Assembly: GCF_014873145.1 (NCBI RefSeq)
Contig: NZ_JADBEK010000001.1
Location: forward strand, 12,276,001 to 12,340,000
Length of the DNA stretch: 64,000 nt
Direction of reading: 5' to 3'
Source of the DNA: Nonomuraea angiospora
Lineage (GTDB): Bacteria > Actinomycetota > Actinomycetes > Streptosporangiales > Streptosporangiaceae
The notes beneath the pieces were generated by a model that was not told the origin of the DNA, searched no databases, and saw nothing but the letters and a program-made list of their open reading frames with translations. Made by a program: the position numbers and the translations under genes. Below are positions 18,655 to 25,569 of the stretch, piece by piece (within the stretch, counting starts at the first letter, position 1; every line of letters starts with the position of its first letter).

Positions 18655-19599
18655 GTGGTCGAACAGGCGTCGGCCTGGGTGGAGTCACCGCTCCAGATGC
18701 TGTGCGCCGTCGAGGCCCATCACGCGGGCGTGCTCGGCCCCGAGACGGTGGTCGTGCCGCGCGCCGGTCTGCGGCCGCTGAAGGCCACGCGCCGGGAGCT
18801 GAGGTCTCTCGGGCTGCCCGACGGCCTGGAGCTGGCGGAGCCGCTCGAGCGCATGCCCAGACGCGTGCAGGCCGTCGGCGACGCCTTCTCCGGCAGGGTG
18901 CAGCTGCGCTGGCTCACCTCGCGTCCCGGACGCATCGTCATCGTGGACGACGGGCTGGCCACGCTCCGGCTGCTGGAGCTGCTGGCCGCGGGGCCGTACC
19001 GGCCGCTGCTGCGGGCCAGGGCCCAGCCGACGAAGCTGCGTTCCGCGCTGGGCCTGGCGGCCGCGCTGCGGCTGCGCCTGAGCGACGTGTCGGTCTTCAC
19101 CGCCCTGCCCGTGGACGAGGCCCTGGTGGAGGGCGTACGGCGGGCCGGGATCAACCTGGTACGTCACCAGTTCGCCTGGTTGCGTGCCCAGCCGCCCAGC
19201 GCGGAGGGGCCCGCGGAGCGCACGGTCGTCCTCGGCACCTCGCTCGTCCGGAACGGGCTCGTGCACCGCGGCCACTACCTGCGCTGGCTGACGGAGCTGG
19301 CGGCCCAGGAGCCGCTCGCGTACTACCCGCACCGCCGCGAGGACCCCGTGGACGTGGCCCTGATCAGGGAGCGCCCCGGCATCACCGTGCACGACGTGGG
19401 CGCGCCGGCCGAGCTGACGCTGCGCGGCCTGGACGCGAGCCAGCGCGTGCTCAGCCTGCCCTCGACCGCGATCACCTCGCTGCGGGTGCTGCTCAGCCCG
19501 CGCGGTGTCACCGTGGAGCCCGTGGACGTTCCTGACGACTGGTGGACCAGCAGGGCGGCCCCCGCCCTTCGCTCGCATCTGACAGGAGTGTCCGGTTGA
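18655..19599 (+). CDS. Putative polysialyltransferase-like glycosyltransferase
   Basis: 314 residues, cytosolic, no transmembrane segment. The opening WVESPLQMLCAVEA and the later VIVDDGLATLRLL are typical of the GT52/polysialyltransferase-like proteins in nonulosonic acid loci; the C-terminal part has GITVHDVGAPAELTL and VLSLPSTAITSLRVLL. GTG start with GGGGAGG 6 bases upstream. It ends in TTGA, overlapping the TTG start of the next glycosyltransferase. With the genes to the right it likely transfers sialic-acid-like sugars onto a surface polymer. Family assignment is from motif recognition and moderate. Confidence 0.7.
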   Translation: MVEQASAWVESPLQMLCAVEAHHAGVLGPETVVVPRAGLRPLKATRRELRSLGLPDGLELAEPLERMPRRVQAVGDAFSGRVQLRWLTSRPGRIVIVDDGLATLRLLELLAAGPYRPLLRARAQPTKLRSALGLAAALRLRLSDVSVFTALPVDEALVEGVRRAGINLVRHQFAWLRAQPPSAEGPAERTVVLGTSLVRNGLVHRGHYLRWLTELAAQEPLAYYPHRREDPVDVALIRERPGITVHDVGAPAELTLRGLDASQRVLSLPSTAITSLRVLLSPRGVTVEPVDVPDDWWTSRAAPALRSHLTGVSG

Positions 19600-20762
19600 A
19601 AGTGTTGGCGGTCGCCGACTCCGACTCGTATCTGAAGTGGGCGGCCTGCCTGCTCGGCGACCTTCCCCCCGGCGGCACGGCGGAGCTCGTGGTGGTACGC
19701 ACGCCGATCGCGCCCTCGCCGGAGCAGATCGCCGCCGCCGTGGGCGGTCTGGAGCCGCCGCCGGTGATCTCGGCGCGGTCCGTGCGGCGGCTGGCCGAGC
19801 GCACGCGTCCGGACGTGGTGCTGGTGGCCTGCACGGGCCCGGTGGTGGACGTGCTGGTGGCCGACGTGCTCGGCGACCTGCGGCCGCGGCCGGTGTTCGT
19901 GAGCGGGCTGCCGGGCATCTCGGTGCCGGCGACGGAGAAGGCGTGGCTGTTCCGCAGCGGGTGTGACCTGTTCGTGGTGCACAGCGAGCGTGAGGTGGCC
20001 GAGTTCTCCGAGATCGCCGGCCGGCTCGGCGGGGGAGGGGCGGTGGGGCTGGCCAGGCTGCCGTTCCTGCGCTCCGACGTGGTCGCCGGGGGCGGGAACC
20101 GGGTCGTGTTCGCCACCCAGGCCAAGGTGCCGCGCGAGCGCCCGGACCGCGAGCGGATCCTGCTGGCGCTGGCCGAGCTCGCCCGGCTGCGGCCGGAGCT
20201 GGACGTGGTGGTCAAGCTGCGGGCCCTTGAGGACGAGCGGCAGACGCACAACGAGCGCCACCACTACCAGCGGCTGTGGCGGGAGATGGGCGAGCCGGGG
20301 CGGGTGGAGTTCGCGGCGGGGTCGATGCACGACCAGCTCGAACGGGCGGCCGGGTTCGTCACGGTGAGCTCGACGGCGGCGCTGGAGGCGATCGCGCTGG
20401 GCGTGCCGTCGCTGGTGCTGGAGGACTTCGGCGTCAGCGCCGAGATGATCAACCTGGTGTTCGAGGGCAGCGGGCTGCTGGGCACGCTCGACGACCTGGC
20501 CGAGGGCGGTTTCCGGGCGGCCTCTCCGGAGTGGTGCGAGGCCAACTACTTCCACCCGCCGGCGCGCAACGACTGGGCCGGGCGGCTGGCCGGGCTGGTG
20601 GCGGGCGGGCCGCGCGTACCGGCCCGGTCGCTGCTGGACGGGCCGGAGCACGCGGCGGCGCGGCGGCGGGCCAGGCTGCGGGTGGAGGTGCATCCCTCGA
20701 TGCTGCGGGCCGGCTACCGGGCCAAGCGCCGCGTGCGCCGCTACCTCAGGGCCCTCGGCTGA
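19596..20762 (+). CDS. DUF6716-type putative glycosyltransferase (TTG start)
   Basis: 388 residues starting (M)KVLAVADSDSYLKWAACLL. The N-terminal half has VVVRTPIAPSPEQIAAAV and PVFVSGLPGISVPATEKAW; the C-terminal half looks like a GT-B nucleotide-sugar domain, with VKLRALEDERQTHNERHHY and VTVSSTAALEAIALGVPSL. The start is a TTG fixed by AGGAG at 7-base spacing and by TTGA overlap with the upstream stop. Members of this family accompany sialic-acid-type biosynthesis genes in actinobacteria. Enzymatic activity is unproven. Confidence 0.75.
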   Translation: MKVLAVADSDSYLKWAACLLGDLPPGGTAELVVVRTPIAPSPEQIAAAVGGLEPPPVISARSVRRLAERTRPDVVLVACTGPVVDVLVADVLGDLRPRPVFVSGLPGISVPATEKAWLFRSGCDLFVVHSEREVAEFSEIAGRLGGGGAVGLARLPFLRSDVVAGGGNRVVFATQAKVPRERPDRERILLALAELARLRPELDVVVKLRALEDERQTHNERHHYQRLWREMGEPGRVEFAAGSMHDQLERAAGFVTVSSTAALEAIALGVPSLVLEDFGVSAEMINLVFEGSGLLGTLDDLAEGGFRAASPEWCEANYFHPPARNDWAGRLAGLVAGGPRVPARSLLDGPEHAAARRRARLRVEVHPSMLRAGYRAKRRVRRYLRALG

Positions 20763-21143: not shown

Positions 21144-22379
21144 TCAGATCGCCGAGCGGATCTTCCGGCGCAGCCGGGTGAGCGCCGTGGGCCGGGCCAC
21201 CAGGCCGAGGGTCTCCAGGCGCTTGCGCTTGAAGTAGCGGGCGTCGAACTCGATGCTCGCCGGCCGCAGCTCCGGATACGTCTCGGCCTGCATGCAGTAG
21301 CCCACCGCCCGGACGAGCCCGCGCAGGTCCACCGCCGTCGGGTGCTCGATGCCGCCGTCCGGCGACAGCCGGGGCAGCAGCGCGTCCACGATCGTGACCG
21401 GGATCCGGTTGCTGTTCTCGTACGGCGCCAGCCGGTCGAGCACCAACTCCGTGCCGTACGAGGCCACCTGCAGCCCGAAGTAGCGCTGCGCGGTCAGCAG
21501 CCCGGTCGAGAAGCAGCCCACGACCAGTTCGGGCCGCAGCGCCGCGAAGCACACCTCGGCGGGCACGCTCTCGGCGGCCACCGACAGCCGGACGCCCAGG
21601 GGTTCGGCCGCGGCCCGCAGTAGCTGGGCGTGGCGCCGCCCGGCGGCCGGGTGCGGCTTGAAGACGATGTCGGTGTAGCCGCGGGCGGCCAGGGCCTTGA
21701 GCATCGTCTCGTGCAGCGCCGCCTCCTCCTCCGGGGTGACGATCTCCAGCGCCGACAGGTACTGGCCGAGGATCATCGCCTGCCCGGGCCGCATGTCGGG
21801 GGCGGTGGCGGTGACCTCGTGCACGATCGACATGAACCGCTCGTCCGGCAGGATCGAGGGCGCGACGTCGTACTCGCTGAGCAGCAGCGGGGTCAGGCCC
21901 GGCACGAGGTCCAGGTGGAGCAGGCGGCCGATGCGGCGGTAGATCTCCGCCGGCAGCGGGTCGCGGGTGGGGCCGTAGCTCATCAGGCCGTCGGAGTAGA
22001 CGGTGATCGGGCAGTCGCGCACCAGCCCGGCGATGGTCCGGGCCGGGGGCACCGCGATGGACTCCAGCACCAGCTCCTCGACCCCGTCCAGACCCCAGAC
22101 CGAGCGGAGGAGGCGCTCCATCATCGGCACCTCGATGACGCGGGCGCGCCAGTCGGAGGGGTGCAGCGGCGCGATGAGGTCGTTCCACGAGTGCACGGCG
22201 TCGAAGCGCGAGCGCAGCACGGCGAAGCCGGGCGACTTGTCGAGCGGCGCCGTCACCTCGGGGATGGCCGCGTTGTTCGAGACGATCAGGACGCGGCGCC
22301 CGTCGCCGAAGCGGCCGTCGTCGATGGCCGCGGCCAGCGACATCGCGCCGAACAGCGTCGAGGCGTAGAAGACCTTCAC
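21144..22379 (-). CDS. Polysialyltransferase-family (POLYSIA) glycosyltransferase
   Basis: 411 residues starting (M)KVFYASTLFGAMSLAAAID. It contains features of the alpha-2,8-polysialyltransferase family: TVYSDGLMSYGPTRD, FKPHPAAGRRHAQLL (the HP motif) and GCFSTGLLTAQRYFGLQ (the S/T motif), which together form the CMP-sugar site of bacterial sialyltransferases. Cytosolic with a basic C-terminal tail that could touch the membrane. GTG start at 22379 shares one base with the TAG of the upstream GT2 gene. Predicted to polymerise or add nonulosonic acid residues to a surface glycan. Confidence 0.82.
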   Translation of the reverse strand: MKVFYASTLFGAMSLAAAIDDGRFGDGRRVLIVSNNAAIPEVTAPLDKSPGFAVLRSRFDAVHSWNDLIAPLHPSDWRARVIEVPMMERLLRSVWGLDGVEELVLESIAVPPARTIAGLVRDCPITVYSDGLMSYGPTRDPLPAEIYRRIGRLLHLDLVPGLTPLLLSEYDVAPSILPDERFMSIVHEVTATAPDMRPGQAMILGQYLSALEIVTPEEEAALHETMLKALAARGYTDIVFKPHPAAGRRHAQLLRAAAEPLGVRLSVAAESVPAEVCFAALRPELVVGCFSTGLLTAQRYFGLQVASYGTELVLDRLAPYENSNRIPVTIVDALLPRLSPDGGIEHPTAVDLRGLVRAVGYCMQAETYPELRPASIEFDARYFKRKRLETLGLVARPTALTRLRRKIRSAI

Positions 22380-23359
22380 TATGTCTCCTCCCGGTCGCGG
22401 CGGACCCGGACGTGCGGGCTGGGCGGCAGGTCGGGCACCAGGGCCCGCAGCGTGGTCTCGCGTTCGGCGGACATGCGCGCCACCGACTCCGACACCAGCT
22501 CGGCGGGCAGGGCGCGCACCATGTGGGCGCCGCGCTCCTCGAAGCGGGAGCGCAGCGCCGGGGTGAACCGGTCGGCGATCTCCAGGTGGTGGGCGAGCAG
22601 CGCGCAGAAGTTGCGCACCGCCTTGGGCAGGAACTCCGGCTCGAGATCCTTGAACACCAGGTCGAACGCGTCGAAGAAGTGCAGCTGGCGCTCGTCGCCG
22701 ACCTGGGTCAGCGACCCGGACACCAGGCGGCGGTAGAACACCCCGGCCAGCGACACCACCGCGAACGTGGCGGCCTCCCGGTGCAGGCGCCAGATCCACG
22801 GCCGGTCCTCGGCGGTGTGCAGGGAGCCGGGGAAGTGCAGCAGGTCGCGCAGGGAGCGCCGGTAGATCCCGGCCCACGCGTACGGGTAGTCGACCATGGT
22901 CCGCACGCCGGCGGGCAGGATCGCCTCCCGTGGGTCGAGCACCACGCCCCTCCGCGCCATGGGGGCGCGGTGCACGACCCGTTTGCGGCCCTCGACCTGC
23001 ACGTGGTCGGCGCGTACGAAGTCGCAGCCGAGCCCGTCGATCGCCTCGACGAGCCGTGCCAGGTAGCCCGGGGCGAGCCAGTCGTCGGCGTCCATGAACG
23101 TGACGTACCGGCCGGAGGCGGCCGACAGGCCCGTGTTGCGGGCGTCGGCCAGCCCGACGGGGGCCGGGTTGCGCAGCATGGTCAACCCGGGCAGGTCGCG
23201 CGTGAAGTCGTCGACGATGTCCCCGGTGGCATCCGTGGACCCGTCGTTCACGACGATGAACTCGAAGTCGTGCCGGGCGTTGCGGCAGAGCGACGACAGC
23301 GCGTCGGCGATGTACCGCTCGCCGTTCAGCACCGGCACGACGACCGAGAGAGTGATCAA
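22379..23359 (-). CDS. Family 2 glycosyltransferase (TTG start)
   Basis: 326 residues with a GT-A fold. ITLSVVVPVLNGERYIADAL begins the nucleotide-sugar domain, FIVVNDGSTDATGDIV is the first Asp motif and GRYVTFMDADDWLAPGY holds the metal-binding DxD (DAD). The C-terminal region has TAEDRPWIWRLHREAATF, common in wall-polymer glycosyltransferases. The start is TTG at 23359 with GGAG 9 bases upstream; the next GTG lies inside the first strand and would break the fold. It sits 28 bases after the NeuA-HAD-NeuB gene on the same strand. Confidence 0.87.
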   Translation of the reverse strand: MITLSVVVPVLNGERYIADALSSLCRNARHDFEFIVVNDGSTDATGDIVDDFTRDLPGLTMLRNPAPVGLADARNTGLSAASGRYVTFMDADDWLAPGYLARLVEAIDGLGCDFVRADHVQVEGRKRVVHRAPMARRGVVLDPREAILPAGVRTMVDYPYAWAGIYRRSLRDLLHFPGSLHTAEDRPWIWRLHREAATFAVVSLAGVFYRRLVSGSLTQVGDERQLHFFDAFDLVFKDLEPEFLPKAVRNFCALLAHHLEIADRFTPALRSRFEERGAHMVRALPAELVSESVARMSAERETTLRALVPDLPPSPHVRVRRDREET

Positions 23360-23387: not shown

Positions 23388-25496
23388 TCAGACGGTCACC
23401 CGGCGCAGGCGGGCCTTGGGGGCCTCCTCGCCGGGGAAGACGCGCTTGACGCCGTCGCCCATGGCCTGCTCGATGATGCGGATGTCACGGACGAGGTGCT
23501 CGAGGCCGGCCGGCTCCAGGGAGGCGGCGTGGTCGGAGCCCCACATGGTCCGGTCGAGCGTGATGTGCCGCTCCACGGTGACCGCGCCGAGCGTGACCGC
23601 GGCCAGGGAGATCTGCAGGCCGCGCTCGTGGCCGGAGTAGCCGACGGGCACGCCGTAGCGCTCCTTGAGCGTGGTGATCGTGCGCAGGTTCGCCTCTTCC
23701 GGCGGCAGCGGGTAGGTGGACGTCGCGTGCATCATGATCAGCTTGTCGGTGCCGAGGATCTCGACGGCCGCGTCGATCTCCGACAGCGTGGACATGCCGG
23801 TGGACAGGATGATCGGCTTGCCGGTGGCGGCCAGGACCCGCAGCAGCTCGTGGTCGGCGACGCTGGCCGAGGCCACCTTGTGGACGAGGACGTCCATCTC
23901 CTCCAGGAACTCCACGGAGGGCACGTCCCACGGCGAGGCGAACCAGTGCAGGCCGCGCTCGTCGCAGTATTTCGCGATCTGCCGGTACTCGTCGTAGCCG
24001 AACTCGGTCCGCTCCTTGTACTCCAGGTACGTCATCTCGCCCCACGGCGTCTGCCTGATCTGGCCCTTCTGCTCCTCGGGCACGCAGATCGCGGGGGTGC
24101 GCTTCTGGAACTTGACCGCCTGGCAGCCGGCCTCGGCCGCCACGTCGATGAGGCGGCGGGCGATGTCGATGTCGCCGTTGTGGTTGATGCCGATCTCGCC
24201 GATCACGTACACGGGCTCGCCGTCGCCGACCAGGACGTCGCCGATCGCAACGTGCTCATGGTCGCGGCCGCTTCCGGGCTCGTTGGCTCGTCCCTCGCTC
24301 TCTCCCCCGGAGCTCCTCCGCTCCGGCCCGAGCCTGGGCCGCGTGCGGACCTCGGCGGCGGGCGGCTCGGGACGGGCGGCCACGACGCGGTCGCACAGCT
24401 CGCGCACGGCGCCGGACCCGCCGGCCCTGGTCAGCACGACCCTGGCGGCGGCGCGGACGCGCGGGTGGGCGTCGGGGGTGGCGACGGGCCAGCCGACCTC
24501 GGCCATCGGGCCCAGGTCGTTGACGTCGTTGCCGACGTAGGCGACGCGGGCCGGGTCGAGGCCCTCGATGGTCAGCCAGTCGCGCAGCACGGTCCGCTTC
24601 TCGGCCAGGCCCTGCAGCACGGGGACGCCGAGCTTGCGGGCGCGGGCGGCCACCACCGGGTTGTGCTCGGTGGACATGACCAGCACCTTCACCCCGGACC
24701 GCTTCAGCAGCGCGATGCCCATCCCGTCGGAGCGGCTGACGAGCACCATCTCGCGGCCGTCGGAGTCGACGTAGGCGCGGTCGTCGGTGTGCACGCCGTC
24801 GAAGTCGGTGATGACGGCGTCCACGTCGATCGGCTCGGGCTCGTCGATGAACGGGGCGAGCGCGCGCACCAGCTCGAGGTCGTCCGGGTTGTCGATCTCG
24901 ACGCCGTGCTTGGGCGAGACCGGCTGGACGGCGACCTGGCCGAAGAAGCGGTGGCCGTGCTCGCGCAGGCCGGAGGTGCGCATGACGTAGAAGGCGCCGT
25001 TCTCGCGGAACTCGGGGTCGCGGTCCTGGCGGCGCTGCCGGATGGCCGGGTCGTGGTTGATGCCGGCCCCGGCGGCGGTCCACAGGAACTCGTGCGTCGG
25101 CAGCCCCGACACGACCGAGTCGGCCTCCCCGTCCAGCACCTTGCGCACCGCCTCGGAGAGGTTCTCCGGGTCGATGAACGCGCTGGTGCACTGCACCAGC
25201 ACGACGACCTCGGGGTCCTCGCCGAGGGCGTCGAGCGCGTGCAGCACCGCCGACTCGCTGGAGGCGGTCGCGCCGCTCAGCTCCTCGGGGCGGTCCACGA
25301 CGATGGCCCCCGCCTCGCGGGCGGTCTCGGCGATGCCCGCGTGGTCGGTGCTGACCACGACCTGGTCCACGAGCTCGGCCCGCAGGGCGGCCCGAACCGC
25401 TCGGGTGACCAGCGGGACGCCGCCGACCAGGGCGAGGTTCTTCAGGGGTACGCCCGCCGAACCTCCGCGGGCGGGAACTACGGCCAGGACTCGCAA
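23388..25496 (-). CDS. Three-domain nonulosonic acid enzyme: NeuA - HAD phosphatase - NeuB
   Basis: 702 residues in one open frame. Residues 1-215 are a CMP-acylneuraminate synthetase (VLAVVPARGGSAGVPLKNL; VVVLVQCTSAFIDPENL; HGVEIDNPDDLELV). About 220-372 form a HAD phosphatase of the KdsC/NeuA-C type (VDAVITDFDGVHTDD; VAYVGNDVNDLGPMAEVG). A Gly/Arg/Glu-rich linker (about 376-420) leads to a NeuB sialic-acid synthase domain (VIGEIGINHNGDIDIARRL; QAVKFQKRTP; TYPLPPEEANL; ITLDRTMWGSDH). The C-terminal antifreeze-like SAF domain of NeuB is absent. TTG start with GAGGAG at 7-base spacing. Predicted route: condensation with PEP, 9-dephosphorylation, CMP activation. No ATG or GTG start fits a separate NeuB gene, but a start inside the linker cannot be excluded. 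Confidence 0.88.
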   Translation of the reverse strand: MRVLAVVPARGGSAGVPLKNLALVGGVPLVTRAVRAALRAELVDQVVVSTDHAGIAETAREAGAIVVDRPEELSGATASSESAVLHALDALGEDPEVVVLVQCTSAFIDPENLSEAVRKVLDGEADSVVSGLPTHEFLWTAAGAGINHDPAIRQRRQDRDPEFRENGAFYVMRTSGLREHGHRFFGQVAVQPVSPKHGVEIDNPDDLELVRALAPFIDEPEPIDVDAVITDFDGVHTDDRAYVDSDGREMVLVSRSDGMGIALLKRSGVKVLVMSTEHNPVVAARARKLGVPVLQGLAEKRTVLRDWLTIEGLDPARVAYVGNDVNDLGPMAEVGWPVATPDAHPRVRAAARVVLTRAGGSGAVRELCDRVVAARPEPPAAEVRTRPRLGPERRSSGGESEGRANEPGSGRDHEHVAIGDVLVGDGEPVYVIGEIGINHNGDIDIARRLIDVAAEAGCQAVKFQKRTPAICVPEEQKGQIRQTPWGEMTYLEYKERTEFGYDEYRQIAKYCDERGLHWFASPWDVPSVEFLEEMDVLVHKVASASVADHELLRVLAATGKPIILSTGMSTLSEIDAAVEILGTDKLIMMHATSTYPLPPEEANLRTITTLKERYGVPVGYSGHERGLQISLAAVTLGAVTVERHITLDRTMWGSDHAASLEPAGLEHLVRDIRIIEQAMGDGVKRVFPGEEAPKARLRRVTV

Positions 25497-25569
25497 GATC
25501 TGTCTCCTCAGTGCATCGGACTGCACCCAGAAGCTAGAGGCCCGGATTGAACGGCCAGCGTCACCATCA

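Follow-up and report, generated by a model that had tools for sequence, protein, structure and literature searches.

A single gene of the soil actinomycete Nonomuraea angiospora joins a CMP-nonulosonate synthetase (NeuA), a HAD phosphatase and a NeuB-type synthase in one polypeptide, and this fusion is real and conserved, not an artefact. It lies in the window, the whole stretch of 64,000 nucleotides analysed here, and 82 genomes, all of the family Streptosporangiaceae, carry the same order in one frame. We consider it likely that the chain is a fixed three-step enzyme that arose once in this family and that would probably supply CMP-Kdn for a teichulosonic-acid-type polymer.

An earlier note on this DNA had described a single frame of 702 codons with a TTG start and the order NeuA, HAD phosphatase, NeuB, and both the frame and the Pfam, NCBIfam and PDB matches agree with that description (Table 1). 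The earlier note leaves unsaid that the gene is encoded on the minus strand. The open reading frame listing gives a longest frame, 23388..25526 on the minus strand, that begins at a GTG 30 bases upstream of the TTG at 25496 and yields 712 residues instead of 702. The TTG is the better start, because it follows an AGGAG site and because this pattern of start codon and ribosome-binding site recurs at the aligned place in all 82 fused loci. The start codon there is TTG in 62 and GTG in 20, the window's own counted, and the site, no more than 18 nt upstream, reads AGGAG in 79 and GGAG in 3. CGA directly follows the start codon in 77 of the 82. Many fused loci of the genus Nonomuraea also share an upstream stretch, CTAGCTTCTGGGTGCA..., at 25497-25560 of the window (minus strand), which may be a promoter or leader sequence.

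Table 1. The fused gene, its parts and its neighbours in the window.
Feature	Position	Strand	Basis and remarks
Fused NeuA-HAD-NeuB gene	23388..25496	minus	702 codons, TTG start, TGA stop, 75.9 kDa
Putative ribosome-binding site AGGAG	25504..25508	minus	7 nt before TTG; from sequence
CMP-nonulosonate synthetase (NeuA) domain	24855..25496	minus	Pfam CTP_transf_3; signature PARGGSAG, Lys of S-K-G replaced by Ala
KdsC/Kdn-9-phosphatase-like HAD domain	24372..24824	minus	motifs DFDGVHTD, GNDVND
Interdomain linker	24255..24371	minus	model residues 379-411 under pLDDT 50
72-bp dispersed repeat, in-frame insert in linker	24253..24324	minus	sequence comparison
SAF-less NeuB-type synthase domain	23391..24254	minus	Pfam NeuB; model's best match 6ncs
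Family 2 glycosyltransferase	22379..23359	minus	28 nt after the fusion's stop, same strand; neighbour in relatives
Alpha-2,8-polysialyltransferase-family protein (PF07388)	21144..22364	minus	Pfam; also in relatives' loci
DUF6716 putative glycosyltransferase	19542..20762	plus	Pfam; also in relatives' loci
Conserved cluster protein	18655..19599	plus	model; no Pfam or NCBIfam match

The three domains differ in how firmly profile searches name them. NeuA matches CTP_transf_3 (E 4e-22), and the NeuB TIM-barrel (PF03102, E 6e-84) scores 281.6 bits, over a cut-off of 22.1. The HAD domain reaches 23.3 bits against Pfam Hydrolase (E 1e-4), under the cut-off of 26.4, and matches NCBIfam KdsC at E 3e-29, also under that model's own cut-off; against PDB entry 3mmz it reaches E 5e-51. 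In an alignment of 111 rows all three domains contain many near-invariant columns. These include the NeuB catalytic residues E444, K472, Q474 and H654 with their neighbours, and the HAD residues D241, D243, K310, N333 and D334, with DxD, K and GNDxxD present. NCBIfam returned 15 families, NeuB_NnaB, PseI and KdsC among the best, and all 15 fall under their own cut-offs, so that no curated model assigns a specificity. The NeuB score lies under the cut-off for PseI and, at 270.5 against 399.65, under that of the NeuB_NnaB equivalog (TIGR03569), although a missing SAF domain alone would lower the latter score. The HAD domain scores 84.9 bits against the Kdn-9-phosphatase equivalog (NF058599), whose cut-off is 180.

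The SAF domain usual in NeuB was said to be lacking, and indeed no SAF match up to E 0.001 was found in the fused protein, where only about 20 residues follow the NeuB match. SAF is absent from all ten aligned NeuBs, fused and split. Its loss through fusion is ruled out, since the separate NeuBs of split relatives also lack it; the sequences thus point to an ancestral condition not caused by the fusion.

The closest solved chains by sequence are 9t4z for NeuA, 3mmz for the HAD domain and 6ncs for NeuB, and these are also the first Foldseek matches of the three parts. The best NeuA-type structure match, 9t4z, is a CMP-Kdn synthetase; 6ncs is a 290-residue Leptospira synthase chain with no SAF in the chain. 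The HAD part superposes on the listed KdsC-type and 3mmz chains with an rmsd of 1.3-2.3 Å. The AlphaFold model (mean pLDDT 89.3) predicts three firm domains on a floppy tether, and its pTM of 0.50 says nothing about how these domains pack.

A search of related genomes for NeuA-HAD-NeuB in one frame, proposed in the earlier note, bore out its claim of one chain with three pathway enzymes. Within the genus Nonomuraea the three domains share a frame in 52 of 54 genomes, and G007 and G010 gave only distant NeuB or weak matches. In a sample of 120 genomes from the family, 58 had a match of some kind. Of these, 38 are fused, 33 of them confirmed by script and 5 judged from the match listing alone; 10 are split, contig ends interrupt 2, and 7 show weak or partial matches only. 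The remaining one, G134, has a listing like that of the fused G159. Together, the genus, family and class samples hold 82 fused loci in 82 genomes. The split arrangement, with NeuA-HAD and NeuB as neighbouring separate genes, occurs in 29 distinct genomes, 10 in the window's family and 19 outside it (32 split loci less 3 from genomes already counted). The locus set comprised 124 loci, of which 10 were dropped (8 for a domain missing in the stretch, 1 for strand, 1 for distance).

Broader samples place the fusion in the same family. Among 246 genomes of the class, 110 had a match, and the full-length matches without a stop that were listed all belong to the window's family. In a phylum sample, also of 246 genomes, matches at E up to 1e-30 came from 26, and the window's own was the only full-length match without a stop among those listed. 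A scan with named organisms covered the best 80 of 583 confirmed stretches: the domains are fused in 17 and split in 46, the parts stand apart in 5, and in 12 the stretch has no NeuA/HAD upstream. The fused ones include Nonomuraea (4), Planobispora, Acrocarpospora (2), Microbispora, Microtetraspora, Streptosporangium (2) and Herbidospora (3).

Linkers of the 82 fused loci span 16 to 44 residues, and all are a multiple of three without a stop. The spacers of the 29 split relatives, in contrast, fall in all three phases (11, 10 and 8), and 29 of 29 have an in-frame ATG for NeuB within 22 codons. This difference means that sequencing error cannot explain the fusion. Homology over the whole length, together with the 82 in-frame genomes, likewise rules out a chance frame in G+C-rich DNA and a sequencing frameshift as the source of the join. 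The findings that the earlier note had named as fatal to the fusion were looked for by sequence, and none came true: there is no frameshift, homologues are not all split, and no in-frame ATG, GTG or TTG occurs in the linker of the window's gene.

The split relatives already have a joined NeuA-HAD protein, so that the only new step is the addition of NeuB. A tree of concatenated NeuA-HAD and NeuB was built from 61 rows, namely all 29 split genomes and 32 of the 82 with the fusion; the fused rows form one side of a branch with SH-aLRT 98.9, and one change of state suffices. Several origins within the family were considered, as the tree of NeuB only (111 rows) needs two changes, but the longer concatenated alignment needs one. 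Since the groups outside the family are all split in both trees, the fusion is most simply read as one derived clade. The chain would have arisen once in the family, when the stop codon and the NeuB start between the NeuA-HAD gene and the downstream NeuB gene were lost.

Three further joins lie outside the family, in an uncultured Isoptericola, Cellulosimicrobium terreum and Arthrobacter castelli (among the best 80 of 583 stretches). The stop is gone there, and the NeuB ATG behind a purine-rich stretch is still present in the open frame. They look like young, parallel joins and may yield both the fused form and a separate NeuB; each is a single case in a draft assembly, where sequence errors are possible.

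We infer the substrates, product and polymer, the activity of all three domains and the benefit of their linkage as follows. The C-terminal NeuB domain would form a nonulosonate 9-phosphate from a hexose-6-phosphate and phosphoenolpyruvate, the middle HAD domain would remove the phosphate, and the N-terminal NeuA domain would attach CMP to the free sugar. Because the chain includes a phosphatase with its HAD motifs kept, a 9-phosphate intermediate is the simple reading, and this part of the earlier proposal stands as the economical one. As to the further proposal of Kdn-type or mammalian-type synthesis, either mannose-6-phosphate or ManNAc-6-phosphate may be the substrate: the genome has no NeuC over the cut-off (best match 65.9 bits against 235.9) but does have a NanE homologue over its own. 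The product would most likely be CMP-Kdn from mannose-6-phosphate, with no further dedicated enzyme needed.

The sugar is thus probably Kdn, and three hints lead there: the lack of a NeuC over the cut-off, the lack of a SAF domain and the cluster neighbours. A passage of PMC6795526 on the Neisseria enzyme gives the SAF arginine a presumed role in positioning the N-acetyl group of ManNAc, so that the absence of SAF fits a substrate without that group. It is no proof of Kdn, since Leptospira, the source of the closest synthase structure, is reported to make Neu5Ac (for Leptospira interrogans, which is related to the source of 6ncs, in a passage of PMC3438082). The same fused enzyme could therefore act on ManNAc-6-phosphate and make Neu5Ac or another N-acylated nonulosonate, as in animals; we regard this as unlikely, though it survives better than any other alternative. 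The NanE homologue means that ManNAc-6-phosphate could be available, but it lies about 0.76 Mb from the fused gene. NanE can also be catabolic. The missing NeuC and the CMP-Kdn synthetase as closest solved NeuA also speak against Neu5Ac, as does the Kdn in a Streptomyces wall polymer reported in a passage of PMC11481543. The genome holds a second NeuB (L001, G000:C1:8896590-8900309), 39% identical and with a SAF-like tail in frame; it is flanked by frames that by eye are acetyltransferase-like and PseG-like, and the locus looks like a separate pseudaminic acid pathway.

CMP-Kdn, as the preferred product, would be used by the four adjacent glycosyltransferase-like neighbours (Table 1) for a teichulosonic-acid-type wall glycopolymer. 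The protein at 18655..19599 is a candidate transferase for this polymer, with a predicted fold that weakly resembles sialyltransferases dependent on CMP-sialic acid. Its model (pLDDT 91.7) has two sialyltransferases (2yk4, 2yk5) and two polysialyltransferases (5wcn, 5wc6) as first four matches, all weak (E 7e-6 to 6e-5, TM 0.41-0.51, rmsd 8-17 Å) and with other GT-B folds close behind. The five genes occur together in four of five compared loci of the split group f18, the fifth being without a homologue of 18655..19599, and all five homologues are together in the f43 locus too; five outer loci of groups f36 and f26 have two to four of the five. Group f18 is probably Streptomyces, judging among other things by a signature shared with the named L246. 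The five-gene cluster may correspond to SCO4873-SCO4882 of S. coelicolor, which a passage of PMC13011467 gives as the teichulosonic acid biosynthetic cluster. Passages elsewhere report a galactose-Kdn teichulosonic acid in Streptomyces walls (PMC11481543) and a teichulosonic acid in Kribbella (PMC6113628); the literature passages name no wall polymer for the genus Nonomuraea.

The linker bears on whether the fusion is the working form. An alternative, which we hold to be very unlikely, accepts the continuous frame but has a separate NeuB made also or mainly from an internal start. The three joins outside the family, with their NeuB ATG and purine-rich stretch kept, make such dual use plausible there, and an in-frame ATG, GTG or TTG is present somewhere in the linker region of 61 of the 82 fused loci; in 11 of these it is a GTG that has a weak Shine-Dalgarno-like match. 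However, an ATG occurs in the linker region of 1 of 82 fused loci, without a Shine-Dalgarno-like site, against 29 of 29 split relatives, and in 21 of the 82, the window's included, no ATG, GTG or TTG is present as far as the fifth codon of NeuB. The full chain remains our preferred reading of the gene product.

This linker was put at about 45 residues rich in Gly, Arg and Glu. The richness is confirmed but belongs largely to 24 residues derived from a 72-bp dispersed repeat, and the length between the HAD and NeuB folds is closer to 40. The insert is a multiple of three in length, and the frame stays open. Six of seven compared relatives lack the 72 extra bases, only G020 sharing them with the window, and among the 82 fused proteins just these 2 contain the repeat peptide. 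Within its own genome the insert has 10 more matches (11 with itself, E up to 0.01). At E up to 1e-8 the repeat is present in at least 41 of the 54 genus genomes, its own counted; these genus counts are lower bounds, with at most 16 candidates scored per genome. In some places it is tandem with a 72-base period. Recorded positions, besides that in Table 1, are L128-L138, G048:C34:12182-12397 and G046:C1:2205056-2205271. Copies lie near the 3' ends of alcohol dehydrogenase, OppC-type permease and cytidylate kinase frames, and also within an ABC-ATPase frame; possibly the repeat is an element tolerated in protein tails and linkers. A hairpin element was considered and rejected, since as single-stranded DNA the insert folds no better than shuffled sequences do (z 0.30).

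Of the NeuA signature PARGGSKG...KN, R20, K29 and N30 are near-invariant, and the lysine of S-K-G is replaced by Ala in the window (25472-25452, minus strand). The 82 fused loci carry Ala (57), Val (24) or Thr (1) at this position, whereas of the 29 split genomes 27 have Lys, 1 has Gln and 1 has Arg, and because the fused loci are one clade the change may be one event. A loss specific to the fusion is weakened as an idea by the split Agromyces loci L184 and L186, which carry Val, and by the Promicromonospora and Isoptericola loci L185, L187, L188 and L190, also split, which carry Gln. Fused and split proteins also differ at other positions (712-residue numbering): A86 corresponds to Asp in 28 of the 29 split genomes, A116 to Pro in all 29, and T507 to Val in all 29. 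The lysine of the later K-N pair, kept here, is presumably the counterpart of E. coli Lys21. Since earlier work on the E. coli enzyme named Lys21 and Arg12 (as a passage of PMC2901514 has it), the change probably leaves the enzyme alive, but may alter it. That one domain is degenerate (NeuA, for example, through this lysine) and another protein supplies its activity is the least probable alternative we weighed: the replacement in every fused locus favours it, but the residues named in E. coli, the near-invariant R20, K29 and N30, the Val of split Agromyces proteins and the many near-invariant columns of all three domains argue against it.

Domain fusions show which enzymes work together, and here related bacteria have the same three steps fused, split or, it seems, recently joined, which makes the effect of tethering measurable on natural pairs. 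For a complete pathway from mannose-6-phosphate to CMP-Kdn in one polypeptide, a speculative and rather doubtful extension is that the tethered domains hand over the 9-phosphate and the free sugar, and that the change from S-K-G to S-A/V-G went with the fusion, with kinetics differing from those of the split ancestors; in that case the parallel young joins would show selection for tethering. A single gene leading from a common sugar phosphate to CMP-Kdn (or CMP-Neu5Ac) would be useful as a biocatalyst, and it would also serve as a recognisable marker for a wall polymer of rare actinomycetes about which little is known.

The closest known systems include the split actinomycete one (Streptomyces sp. 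HM190, L246), which has the same three domains in the same DNA order, a SAF-less NeuB and, in group f18, the same neighbouring glycosyltransferases. It differs in that NeuB has a gene and an ATG of its own and that the signature lysine is present in L246 and the compared f18 loci. Mammalian CMP-sialic acid synthetase (murine 1qwj; 3ewi), entries that we take to be one protein, has NeuA followed by a C-terminal HAD domain, as here, but no NeuB in the chain. The NeuB-phosphatase fusion of Leptospira, described in a passage of PMC3438082, likewise unites the synthase and the phosphatase of a proposed 9-phosphate pathway, but has two domains, the synthase first, and no NeuA in the chain. The Kdn pathway of Prymnesium parvum, with a Bacteroides thetaiotaomicron phosphatase, leads from mannose-6-phosphate and phosphoenolpyruvate to Kdn-9-phosphate and then CMP-Kdn, as a passage of PMC6200933 describes, and its NeuA (9t4z) is homologous to the window's NeuA domain. 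It relies on separate proteins, however, and the same passage reports that no phosphatase homologue was found in Prymnesium. No description of the three-domain fusion was found in the open-access literature, subscription journals being outside the scope of the search. Each enzyme, NeuA-HAD proteins and the Leptospira fusion (in the passage of PMC3438082) are already known; new, as far as the open-access literature goes, are the union of all three enzymes in a single chain, the fixation of that chain in one actinomycete family and what look like parallel young joins.
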